A DNA stretch of 32,493 nucleotides from Chthonomonadia bacterium. Its GTDB lineage: Bacteria > Armatimonadota > HRBIN16. The stretch spans positions 1-32,493 of the forward strand of contig JABUFA010000038.1 of NCBI GenBank assembly GCA_013314755.1, written 5' to 3'. Positions 19,928-23,450 of the stretch are shown here, in pieces. The position numbers were made by a program, and so were the translations under genes. The notes under the pieces were generated by a model that did no database searches, was not told the DNA's origin, and saw nothing but the letters and a program-made list of their open reading frames with translations. Numbering within the stretch: position 1 is the stretch's first letter; every line of letters starts with the position of its first letter.

Positions 19928-20926
19928 TTATGTTTTATTATGCCGTCTTTGCCACACGTCCCCCAGCACCGCCAGGAGAATCACCACGCCTTTCACTACT
20001 TTCTGATAAAACGCCGAAACTCCTGCCATCACCAGCCCGTTATCCAGTGCGCCGATTAACACCGCGCCAACCACCGTGCCGCCGACGCCACCGCGCCCGC
20101 CGGCAAGACTCGCCCCGCCAAGCACTACCGCCGCGATGGCGTTCAGCTCGTACATCTCGCCGTATTTCGGGTCGCCCGCGCCCAGCCTCGCCGCCTGCAC
20201 AATGCCGCACAGACCCGCCAGAAATCCCGACAGCATATATACGGCAATCTTTACCTTCGCCACGTCCACGCCCGACAGCCTCGCCGCCTGTTCGTTGCCG
20301 CCAACGGCGTAAACTGAGCGCCCGAAATGCGTGCTTCGCAATAAAATCAAAATGCATAGTGACACTAAAACTGCAATCCATACTGGAATTGGAACGCCCA
20401 GCACTTCGCCACCTGTGCCCCCGCCCAGCCGGTTGAAGGCATCGGGCAGGTTGCCCACCGGCTTGCCATCCGAATAGACGAACGCCGTTCCGCGCGCGAT
20501 AGTCATGGTCGCCAGTGTGACGATAAACGGCGCGATATTCCAGCGGGCAATCAGCCAGCCGTTCCACCAGCCAATGAGCGTGCCCAGCAGACAGGAGACC
20601 ACCACCGCCAGCACTATGCCCGTCGCCAGGTCCGGCTTCGGAACCAGGGTTCGCCCACCCAGCACCAGACCGTTCATCATGAGGTCGGTGCCTATCAGTC
20701 CGCACAGCGCCAGCACCGAACCGACCGAAAGGTCTATGCCCCCGGTGATAATCACCAGCGTCATGCCCACAGCCAGAATGGTGTTGATGGCACTTTGCAG
20801 GAGAATGTTCAGCAGGTTGCGGTGCTCGATGAAGCGGCCGTCGGTGAGTACGGCAAAAAAGACGGTGAGAGCCAGAAGGTACAGAGCGATAGAGTATCTA
20901 CTCACGCGCAGACGGCTCATCGCCAT
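19928..20926 (-). CDS. RbsC-like sugar ABC transporter permease
   Basis: This 332-residue integral membrane protein belongs to the ribose/xylose/rhamnose-type permease family (BPD_transp_2), with about ten helices. Diagnostic segments are GMTLVIITGGIDLSVGS, IAPFIVTLATM, RSVYAVGGNEQAARLSGV and the GGRGGVGGT loop near the end. The permease would form the membrane channel of an importer that also needs an ATPase and a binding protein, and neither is in the window. The start is an ATG at 20926 or 20920, both inside the 3' end of the upstream small gene (overlap 29 or 23 bases). No strong ribosome site precedes it, so translation may depend on the upstream gene. A GH106 gene follows after 42 bases, which suggests rhamnose or another deoxysugar as substrate. 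Confidence 0.9.
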   Translation of the reverse strand: MAMSRLRVSRYSIALYLLALTVFFAVLTDGRFIEHRNLLNILLQSAINTILAVGMTLVIITGGIDLSVGSVLALCGLIGTDLMMNGLVLGGRTLVPKPDLATGIVLAVVVSCLLGTLIGWWNGWLIARWNIAPFIVTLATMTIARGTAFVYSDGKPVGNLPDAFNRLGGGTGGEVLGVPIPVWIAVLVSLCILILLRSTHFGRSVYAVGGNEQAARLSGVDVAKVKIAVYMLSGFLAGLCGIVQAARLGAGDPKYGEMYELNAIAAVVLGGASLAGGRGGVGGTVVGAVLIGALDNGLVMAGVSAFYQKVVKGVVILLAVLGDVWQRRHNKT

Positions 20927-21224
20927 TAGCAGGTATCTCTAGGTTCTTGAAGCGTTCTATTGGCTCCGTCGCAGGCTCTGTTTCAGGCGGGGATGGAACC
21001 TCCACGTCCCGACTGCTGGCGCTAGGCTGTGACGCAGGTTGAGCAGTAGCACCCGTCCTGACCCGCTCTTCCAGTTCCTTCAGCGCCCGCTCCACTTCGT
21101 TTTCGCGCTCTTGCTTCCACTTCTTCAGGTCAGACTCGGCAAGCTCTTCTCGAGCCTTCGCTTCCGCCTCCTCGCGCTCAATACGCTCGTCCATCCGTTC
21201 AAGGTCGGCTTCCAGGTCCTCCAT
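20898..21224 (-). CDS. Small acidic coiled-coil protein resembling PspA helix 4
   Basis: This 108-residue, highly charged protein has an alpha-helical first half (about 1-55) and a Ser/Pro/Thr/Glu-rich disordered second half. Its first 29 residues align without gaps to residues 159-187 of the PspA-like protein encoded three genes upstream, with 15 identical by eye, including DLER and EAEA. This is the region equivalent to helix alpha-4 of PspA/Vipp1. The ATG at 21224 has GAGGTGA at good spacing. A GTG at 21230 is less well placed. The gene lies six bases after the J-like gene, and the downstream permease begins inside it. No family is known to me. It could be a duplicated PspA fragment that modulates assembly. 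Confidence 0.7.
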   Translation of the reverse strand: MEDLEADLERMDERIEREEAEAKAREELAESDLKKWKQERENEVERALKELEERVRTGATAQPASQPSASSRDVEVPSPPETEPATEPIERFKNLEIPANGDEPSARE

Positions 21225-21230
21225 GTTCAC

Positions 21231-21713
21231 TCACCTCACCCCCTCTTCTCCCAGGTCAATCCTGCTGACACGCGCAAAAGTGGGGTCTATCTGCTCGCGT
21301 ATCTTCCTGTACGCCAGCTGAATCTTCTCCTGGATCGACTCAGCGCGTTTGCGTTCTTCAGAGCCCTCCGGGAAACGCGAAGGGTCCGCTCGTTTCATCA
21401 GGTTGTGATAGGTAGTTTCCAGCTGTTCGAGCGTGGCGTCTTCTGGCAAACCGAGCAATCGGTAACACGCCGGCAGGTCAACAGCAGGAGTGTCAGGCTG
21501 GATAGAGACCTCCCCTGCCCTGCTCGGCGAAGCCGGTTGATCGGCAGATGTCACAGGGTCCAGTCTGGGCGGCTCATCACGCAAGCCGCCTCCCGGCTGA
21601 AGAGCCTCTTCCAGCTCGCGTCGCGCCAGTTCCGCTTCCAGGTCGTCCAGCCTTTGCCGGGCGCTTCGGAGGTATGCCTTTGCGATTCGTTTGATGCGCC
21701 GTGTGATTCCCAT
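21231..21713 (-). CDS. Degenerate J-domain-like protein of the PspA operon
   Basis: The 160-residue protein has a basic amphipathic N-terminal helix and a charged coil (1-40), a flexible linker rich in Pro, Ser and Asp (41-80), and a C-terminal J-like domain (about 82-145). The J-like part shows CYRLLGLPEDAT, a helix with a YHNLMKR ending, and a final helix with IQLAYRKIRE, as in DnaJ. The catalytic HPD loop is replaced by DPS (residues 110-112), so stimulation of Hsp70 ATPase is not expected. It starts with a one-base TGATG overlap to the barrel gene, which suggests coupled translation. It may act as a scaffold or adaptor for PspA. Function is inferred only from context. Confidence 0.75.
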   Translation of the reverse strand: MGITRRIKRIAKAYLRSARQRLDDLEAELARRELEEALQPGGGLRDEPPRLDPVTSADQPASPSRAGEVSIQPDTPAVDLPACYRLLGLPEDATLEQLETTYHNLMKRADPSRFPEGSEERKRAESIQEKIQLAYRKIREQIDPTFARVSRIDLGEEGVR

Positions 21714-22591
21714 CAGAAACTCGCCCTCAATTCCAGATTAGCCTGCTCGAAATCGGACTTTCGGAAGACAACCTGCGGGTAAAGCGCGAACCCACCTCCC
21801 ACGTTCTGCTGCACCGATACCATCCAGCGCACCTCACGCGCCCGGACGTTCGTCTCAGCACGTACTACTGGATTCAGCCCCGCTGGTAGCCGCAGCGATG
21901 CTTGTACCATCACAAAATCGGCGTCGGGCAGATCTCCTCGCCTGGCAAGTATGACCTCTCCCTGCCACAAAGTGATGCCTGCCACCTGCCGAACGTCCAT
22001 TCCAAGCAACAGTCCATAGCCCTTGCCCAGATCAGGCTGGTAGTCTTCGCCACGAATAAAGCGAAACGCCGTCTGCCCCATACCCAGGTTGTTACCGTAA
22101 GCCACCGACGCACCGAGCGTGCGCGAACCAAATCGGCAGAACACGCCACCCTGTCTGTCTCTACCGTTGCTGGCGATGGCTATCTCCAGCGCGTTATCTT
22201 TCCACAATCCTACTCGGAGCAAAGCGCCCTTTGCCAGCTCGCGCTCACCCATGCCCTGCCCGAAGGGCATCCACATCTTGCCCAGCTGAGCCTGCCACCC
22301 TCGCCCCTCGTATCTCACGAACGCCTGTTCAATCTCTTCAGGGTCTACCGTGCGGTCGAAGTTCTGCAGCTTCTGGGCGAAGTAGACGCTGAAACGGTTC
22401 TCTCCATACAGCGCCAGATGCGCATCGGAGTACTCCCCGAACTGTGAGTACAACAGCAGGTTGGCGTTGCGGTTGCTGTCCATGCGCATGCGAGCACGAA
22501 TATTGAAGCCGAACTCATACAGCGGTTCTGCCCCTGCCCATGTGCACAGCGCCAACCATCCCGCCAGCAGTAGTGCTGTCAGCCGTTTCAT
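21713..22591 (-). CDS. Outer-membrane beta-barrel (porin-like) protein
   Basis: This 292-residue protein begins with a cleavable signal peptide (MKRLTALLLAGWLALCTWAGA) and then consists of alternating polar and hydrophobic strands typical of a beta-barrel. The segment FVRYEGRGWQAQLGKMWMPFGQG is porin-like. The last residue is Phe in a strand LELRASF, which matches the C-terminal signal recognised by the outer-membrane assembly machinery. It overlaps the PspA stop by one base (TGATG) and the following J-like start in the same way, so the three proteins are probably made in fixed ratio. Channel or sensor activity is not shown. A barrel inside a PspA operon is unusual, because known psp operons encode inner-membrane and cytoplasmic partners. 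Confidence 0.8.
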   Translation of the reverse strand: MKRLTALLLAGWLALCTWAGAEPLYEFGFNIRARMRMDSNRNANLLLYSQFGEYSDAHLALYGENRFSVYFAQKLQNFDRTVDPEEIEQAFVRYEGRGWQAQLGKMWMPFGQGMGERELAKGALLRVGLWKDNALEIAIASNGRDRQGGVFCRFGSRTLGASVAYGNNLGMGQTAFRFIRGEDYQPDLGKGYGLLLGMDVRQVAGITLWQGEVILARRGDLPDADFVMVQASLRLPAGLNPVVRAETNVRAREVRWMVSVQQNVGGGFALYPQVVFRKSDFEQANLELRASF

Positions 22592-23379
22592 CAGGACGCT
22601 GGATTCTCGTTGCTCCCCTTATTGACCTTTGCTTCCAGTTCCTGCAGCTCCTTGTCAATCTCGCTAGTGCTAACCGTTGTCGGTTCGGACGTCTCCGCTT
22701 GTGCAGGAGTGGGTTGAGCTATTCCTAACCGCAACTCCAGCTTTGCCAGCTCTTCCTCCGCCGCCTGATTGGCTGCGTAATCGTCCAGCTGCGCCATGCG
22801 TCCCACCACGCTTTCACGTGCCATTTCGGCGCGTGCCTGCGCTTCCGCTTCGGCGCGGCTGATTTTGTCCTCTACGCGCTCAAGGTCACGGGACACGTCA
22901 TCTACCGACATGCCCTCCAGCGCCTTGTTGATGGAGGATTGAATCTGTGCGCTCTTCCAGCGTGCCTTCTGCGCCAGGATTTCCGCCGTTTTCTGACGTA
23001 CGCGTTCCTCATCGCGCTTGATGGCAATCTTCACCTGCTCTACTACCTCTTCTGCCTGAGCCAGAGCCTGTTTCACCGCCTCCAGCGAGCGCGTATAAGA
23101 GGCTTTCTCCAGCAGAAACTGCTTTGCCAGCTCCCTATCTCCCTTGCGAAGCGCCATCTCGGCACGCCGCTCCAGATCAATGCACGCACGCTCCAGTTTC
23201 TCTGCCTCGCCGCGCAAACGGTTGCGCTCGGTAATCGCCTGCACCGCCCGCTCCTTGTTCCTGAGCAGGTTCTCCTGCAACTCCTCGCGTGCGTGTTCCA
23301 GAATCACCTCGGGGTTCTCTACCTGTCCGAGCAGACTGCTGAACAGAGCGCGGATATATCGGAAAAATCGTTTGAGCAT
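22591..23379 (-). CDS. pspA: PspA/IM30 (Vipp1) family membrane-remodelling protein
   Basis: PspA-family proteins are bacterial ESCRT-III relatives that coat and stabilise stressed inner membrane. The 262-residue protein is almost wholly alpha-helical. It has an amphipathic N-terminal helix (residues 1-20), the conserved GQVENPEVILEHA turn, a long charged hairpin (about 25-145), the AQIQSSINKALEGM turn and a helix-4 region at 159-187 (DLERVEDKI). An acidic, Thr/Ser-rich tail ends in a final predicted helix (about 240-252) that recalls the extra C-terminal helix of Vipp1. A strong promoter precedes it. It is the first gene of a five-gene run with barrel, J-like, mini-helix and permease genes. 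No PspB, PspC or PspF homologue is adjacent, so regulation differs from the enterobacterial system. Confidence 0.92.
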   Translation of the reverse strand: MLKRFFRYIRALFSSLLGQVENPEVILEHAREELQENLLRNKERAVQAITERNRLRGEAEKLERACIDLERRAEMALRKGDRELAKQFLLEKASYTRSLEAVKQALAQAEEVVEQVKIAIKRDEERVRQKTAEILAQKARWKSAQIQSSINKALEGMSVDDVSRDLERVEDKISRAEAEAQARAEMARESVVGRMAQLDDYAANQAAEEELAKLELRLGIAQPTPAQAETSEPTTVSTSEIDKELQELEAKVNKGSNENPAS

Positions 23380-23420: not shown

Positions 23421-23450
23421 ATTATCGCACCAATCGCAGGGCGTTGTCAA
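23421..23450 (-). promoter_or_regulatory. Strong promoter of the pspA operon
   Basis: Read on the minus strand, a consensus TTGACA (23445-23450) and GATAAT (23421-23426) are separated by 18 bases, about 40 bases before the pspA start. The match is to the housekeeping sigma-70 pattern, not to the sigma-54 GG/GC pattern of enterobacterial psp operons. The ribosome site AAAGGAG lies about 13 bases before the ATG. Confidence 0.7.

Follow-up and report, generated by a model that had tools for sequence, protein, structure and literature searches.

What do an outer-membrane barrel, a protein of the J type and a small charged protein do in an operon headed by pspA, and could they act on the PspA polymer? 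The question is raised by a locus in a window of 32,493 nucleotides (the whole stretch of DNA that was analysed) from one of the hot-spring Armatimonadota. A sequence-only reading of the window had described four genes, and all four open reading frames exist, on the minus strand: pspA (22591..23379; 262 aa), the barrel gene (21713..22591; 292 aa, with a signal peptide and a C-terminal Phe), the gene of the J-like protein, hereafter J (21231..21713; 160 aa), and P4 (20898..21230; 110 aa). The pspA/barrel and barrel/J junctions are one-base TGATG overlaps, as had been described; the six-base gap also reported ahead of P4 holds for an ATG start at 21224, whereas the alternative GTG start immediately follows the stop of J. 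A fifth gene on the same strand, encoding a sugar ABC-transporter permease (19928..20926; PF02653, 7.4e-49), overlaps the end of P4 by 29 bases, so the transcription unit probably extends past P4. The permease lies 8-10 bases after J in three genus members (G001, G006 and G009) and does not adjoin J in the other lineages whose loci were read; it is probably co-transcribed, outside the conserved module.

The claim of one strong promoter ahead of pspA is borne out. About 40 bases before the gene lies a sigma-70 type promoter, TTGACA-N18-GATAAT (23421..23450, minus strand), with 11/12 consensus bases. Comparison of upstream DNA showed the -35, -10 and RBS blocks to be kept in 8/8 of the genus genomes that carry the operon, the surrounding DNA having diverged. 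Judged by its hexamers, the promoter looks like a vegetative sigma-70 promoter and not the sigma-54 type, which is the type used with PspF.

The product of the first gene scores 120.4 bits over residues 2-215 against PF04012 (1.1e-34), above the family cut-off of 33.9. It is encoded by the sole pspA copy in the source genome and is a membrane polymer protein of the ESCRT-III superfamily with a C-terminal extension and a final helix. The C-terminus (22591-22700, minus strand) carries a conserved helix, S-x-[IV]-D-x-x-L-x-x-L-E, which resembles both helix 5 of the same protein and the C-terminal extension of Vipp1. PspC (PF04024) has no match anywhere in the source genome, which is 98.7% complete, and the control search was positive in 7 genomes; this agrees with the description of the locus as a PspA operon without PspB/C.

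Which of these genes belong together was examined across 291 Armatimonadota genomes. The source genus (f1) contributes ten genomes and is the sole genus of its family and class in the set; families f15-f18 are Fimbriimonadia-like. PspA is present in 223/291 genomes (at locus L123 of G082 its frame is interrupted by an in-frame TAG and reads as two ORFs). The J-like family, defined by alignment A2, is found in 175/291, almost always as a single copy. The barrel is found in 110/291, exactly one in each, and is restricted to f1 and f15-f18. Two genes were scored as linked when close together on the same strand, and all linkage counts below are among the matches listed.

The idea of a four-gene module fails at P4, which is found only in two sister genomes, G000 and G008. 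The pairs within it fare differently. Among the scored genomes of seven families (f1, f6-f10 and f19), 45/49 have J immediately downstream of pspA and in the same orientation; the four exceptions are f6 genomes with the two matches on different contigs. For f15-f18 the pspA-J linkage falls to 3/54 scored genomes. The barrel is directly upstream of J in 78/93 of the genomes scored for both (f1 8/8, f15 5/6, f16 49/62, f17 16/16, f18 0/1), again among the matches listed. Linkage of pspA with the barrel is found in 8/8 genomes of f1 and 2/61 of f15-f18 among those matches; in one unscored f17 genome, G185, direct reading of the locus shows the two to be adjacent. Co-conservation across the phylum, proposed as a check on the gene order, thus holds for the pairs pspA-J and barrel-J.

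Direct reading of the loci gives the order pspA-X-J, where X is a further family described below, in f8, f10, f19, f28 and f35, and pspA-J in f7 and f9. Only f1 and three genomes of f17 have the order pspA-barrel-J; f15 and f16 have barrel-X-J, and most of the remaining f17 genomes have barrel-J. Some f6 genomes have a class II glutamine amidotransferase, identified by eye, between pspA and J. Since the third gene varies between lineages (X, barrel, glutamine amidotransferase or none), J and pspA are the constant pair; this applies outside f15-f18, and inside those families the constant pair is J and the barrel (with X). Two expectations were rejected at this stage: the barrel is not part of every pspA operon, the middle gene of f8, f10, f19, f28 and f35 being X, and P4 homologues are not the fourth gene elsewhere, genes of about 90 aa proving by eye to encode ribosomal protein S20 (f8) and a PCD-like protein (f9). 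At four f16 loci (L133, L135, L136 and L140) the barrel follows a histidyl-tRNA-synthetase-like gene, also identified by eye.

Because these gene pairs are found repeatedly in the phylum, the gene order is far above chance. This bears on the view that the arrangement reflects housekeeping order only, that is, a strong vegetative promoter in common and evolutionary inertia, with no physical interaction. Such a view draws on the promoter, which is vegetative and not of stress type, and on the varied genes that adjoin the module in different lineages (rpsT, PCD, hisS and the ABC permease); however, J and pspA (or J, X and the barrel) are kept adjacent in many families even as all other neighbours change, and we regard housekeeping order as rather improbable. 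The J gene tree tracks the families, as vertical inheritance would give. The barrel-bearing f1 and f15-f17 do not form one group in it, and their distribution may reflect two separate origins, a transfer, or a single origin followed by losses.

X, encoded by the middle gene in most other lineages (loci L073-L082 and L088-L089, for example L078:3943-4782:-), is a membrane-anchored protein with N-terminal hydrophobic stretches and a long coiled coil. No Pfam family covers X, and the family is previously undescribed. X is matched in 118 Armatimonadota genomes, where the lowest-scoring matches are doubtful, and has no match in the source genome; it may be a membrane anchor that f1 lost. Its candidacy as a PspA homologue was weak (hhalign probability 36%).

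The third gene of the operon, said earlier to encode a degenerate J-domain protein, does encode a J fold. The protein comprises a cationic amphipathic N-helix (residues 3-38), a disordered linker (41-75), a J domain that lacks the HPD motif (80-142) and a C-terminal helix. The J domain is modelled by AF2 with pLDDT 92-94, the top Foldseek matches of the model are J domains (probability 1.00, E about 0.02), and PF00226 matches 25/27 J-like family members. The source protein falls below the DnaJ cut-off (23.7 vs 27.8), which a relative, L143, exceeds with 31.2. HPD is missing in 75/77 family members; the source protein reads DPS, and the remaining tripeptides at this position are mostly DPx, KPx and NPx. 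Both proteins that keep HPD are from f28, and both lack the C-terminal RF..[LI] motif (RFxxL) that is present in 73/77. The N-helix has a hydrophobic moment of 0.71, a value matched by 1% of shuffled sequences. The similarity of this helix to PspA alpha-0 was not significant (hhalign probability 3%), and homology between the two was rejected.

These features bear on the proposal, made from analogy with chloroplast CDJ2 and Hsp70, that the J-like protein is a functional co-chaperone which recruits DnaK to PspA polymers for ATP-dependent disassembly, as CDJ2 and HSP70B act on VIPP1 (PMC13051332). The J fold, the presence of DnaK in the source genome and the conserved pspA-J order would all suit such a role. 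However, the motif that activates DnaK has been lost from nearly the whole family, which argues against the analogy and makes stimulation of Hsp70 unlikely; moreover, the source genome encodes six ordinary J proteins that score over the DnaJ cut-off, the J-like protein alone falling under it. A co-chaperone role seems unlikely to us. From its sequence, the J-like protein is better read as a putative pseudo-J adaptor, a reading that has an even chance jointly with the whole of the explanation proposed below.

The product of the second gene is predicted to be a porin-like barrel, which agrees with its earlier description as an outer-membrane protein. The signal peptide MKRLTALLLAGWLALCTWAGAE... 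and the end ...ELRASF can be read from the sequence; f17 homologues of the barrel end in Leu. No Pfam family and no sequence match in the PDB were found. The AF2 model (pLDDT 81, pTM 0.76) has about 16 long strands and matches OmpT, Omp32 and OmpF with Foldseek probability 1.00 and a VIA Z of 21. Against general porins Z is 20-21.6 over ~245 residues, the highest value (21.6) being for 6ehe. The barrel is thus predicted to have the 16-strand fold of the general porins.

The sequence-only reading had gone further and cast the barrel as a sensor or pore linked to PspA control. A sensor of outer-membrane stress that signals to PspA through the J-like protein would find some support in the pspA-barrel-J operons of f1 and three f17 genomes and in the frequent barrel-J pairing. 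However, the predicted fold is that of a plain porin, and the barrel lies away from pspA in 59/69 scored genomes among the matches listed. A porin is located in the outer membrane, whereas PspA works at the cytoplasmic face of the inner membrane and J is likewise expected in the cytoplasm, so direct contact is excluded barring some connector; we know of no periplasmic connector, no member of the module has a periplasm-spanning domain, and nothing was found that physically links the outer-membrane barrel to cytoplasmic PspA. A wired sensor is in our judgement very improbable. Co-expression is preferred on the same grounds, the porin being either a load that PspA guards against or a gene with a shared regulatory need.

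The first of these possibilities can be stated more strongly, with the porin as client: misinsertion of the porin into the inner membrane would be the stress, and PspA and J would be co-expressed as protection. PspA is known to protect against mislocalised secretins, the predicted fold is that of a porin expressed from the same promoter, and the barrel-J pairing persists where pspA is elsewhere. Most pspA-J lineages, however, have no barrel detected, and a client role of this kind is doubtful as the explanation of the operon.

P4, described earlier as a mini helix-4 protein, is a fragment of PspA helices 4 and 5 with a low-complexity tail. It scores 35.3 bits against a PspA profile built without P4, and the best of 1000 shuffles of its core, which do not preserve the heptad pattern, reached 12.8. 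Comparison with PspA alone by BLASTP was not significant; comparison with the profile was. When whole genomes were searched with P4, pspA helix 4-5 ranked second only to P4 in the source genome and ranked first in six relatives. P4 keeps six of the seven residues of the stretch that are invariant in PspA (I173, A182, R183, E185, L211 and E215; alignment A9). The tail contains the motif ERFKNLEIP (ERFESLEVP in G008), which is like the C-terminus of the J family; a short RFxxLE-type motif is thus common to P4 (21224-20898, minus strand) and 73/77 J-like proteins. Polymer formation by Vipp1 and ESCRT-III is explained by the binding of one subunit's helix 5 to the hairpin tip of a different subunit (PMC8281802). 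Because the polymer interface lies at this contact, a helix 4-5 segment on its own could plausibly act as a cap or decoy, and by analogy such a role for P4 is plausible.

We propose, with evenly balanced confidence, that the locus is a variant of the PSP/ESCRT-III system in Armatimonadota, with a pseudo-J partner of PspA, P4 as a cap or competitor and a co-expressed porin. PspA would assemble into polymers at the cytoplasmic side of the inner membrane, in the known manner of PspA and Vipp1. Its dedicated partner would be the J-like protein, which probably docks on the membrane by the cationic amphipathic N-helix and reaches out on the disordered linker; the HPD-less J domain and the C-terminal RFxxL would serve as a binding adaptor, modulating how PspA assembles while leaving DnaK unstimulated. 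In the sub-lineage of G000 and G008, P4 would probably cap or compete with the polymer. The small porin would be co-expressed and tied to J (and X), not directly to PspA; our guess is that this tie is most likely one of dosage or stress coupling and not of physical signalling. The genes, promoter, predicted folds, fragment homology, conserved linkages and loss of HPD are the observed basis of the proposal. Counting against it, J almost always lies away from pspA in f15-f18, so that the tie is breakable, the N-helix bears little resemblance to PspA alpha-0, P4 is confined to two sister genomes, and we know of no periplasmic connector. A more tentative extension, which we consider possible and less probable than the proposal itself, is that the PspA polymer is regulated without an ATPase by the pseudo-J adaptor together with a filament-capping helix-4/5 decoy, the two sharing the RFxxLE-type docking motif. 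To our knowledge, no Vps4-like ATPase is known for most bacterial PspA polymers.

Foremost among the new findings is that a pseudo-J partner of PspA occurs phylum-wide. A single-copy, HPD-less protein that accompanies pspA across a large part of a phylum is a candidate PspA regulator, and the coupling of J with a porin offers a way to approach envelope stress in a little-studied group with predicted outer-membrane porins.

As in known PSP systems, PspA is the central component and shares an operon with membrane and chaperone-like partners that are specific to the lineage; unlike the systems built on PspB/C, the source genome has no PspC. The partners of PspA in the 2024 PSP survey include PspB/C/F, LiaFSR, PspAA/AB, Toastrack, band-7 and CesT/Tir (PMC11237479). 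The main text of that survey mentions neither Armatimonadetes nor any partner of DnaJ or J-domain type, nor any porin or outer-membrane partner (PMC11237479), pointing to a set of partners absent from the main text of the main published survey. In function, the nearest precedent is the chloroplast VIPP1 system with HSP70B-CDJ2, which is Hsp70-dependent (PMC13051332): there too a J-fold protein is paired with a polymer of the PspA family, and DnaK is present here. Unlike CDJ2, the J-like protein lacks HPD, has an N-helix and a long linker, and is the operon partner of a bacterial PspA. The barrel shares its predicted strand number and fold with the general porins OmpT/OmpU, Omp32, OmpF and OprO (Z about 21) and differs from them in its 8-15% identity, its compact 292 aa, the lack of a Pfam family and the pairing of its gene with J. 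In Tim16/Pam16 and the plastid proteins CJD1 and CPP1 the J fold is kept, the catalytic HPD is lost and the role is membrane-linked and regulatory. The J-like protein likewise keeps the J fold without HPD and, compared by J fold alone, has its closest structural precedents in these HPD-less proteins (Tim16/Pam16 and the plastid J-like proteins); unlike them, it carries a cationic amphipathic helix in place of a transmembrane anchor and ends in the C-terminal RFxxL.
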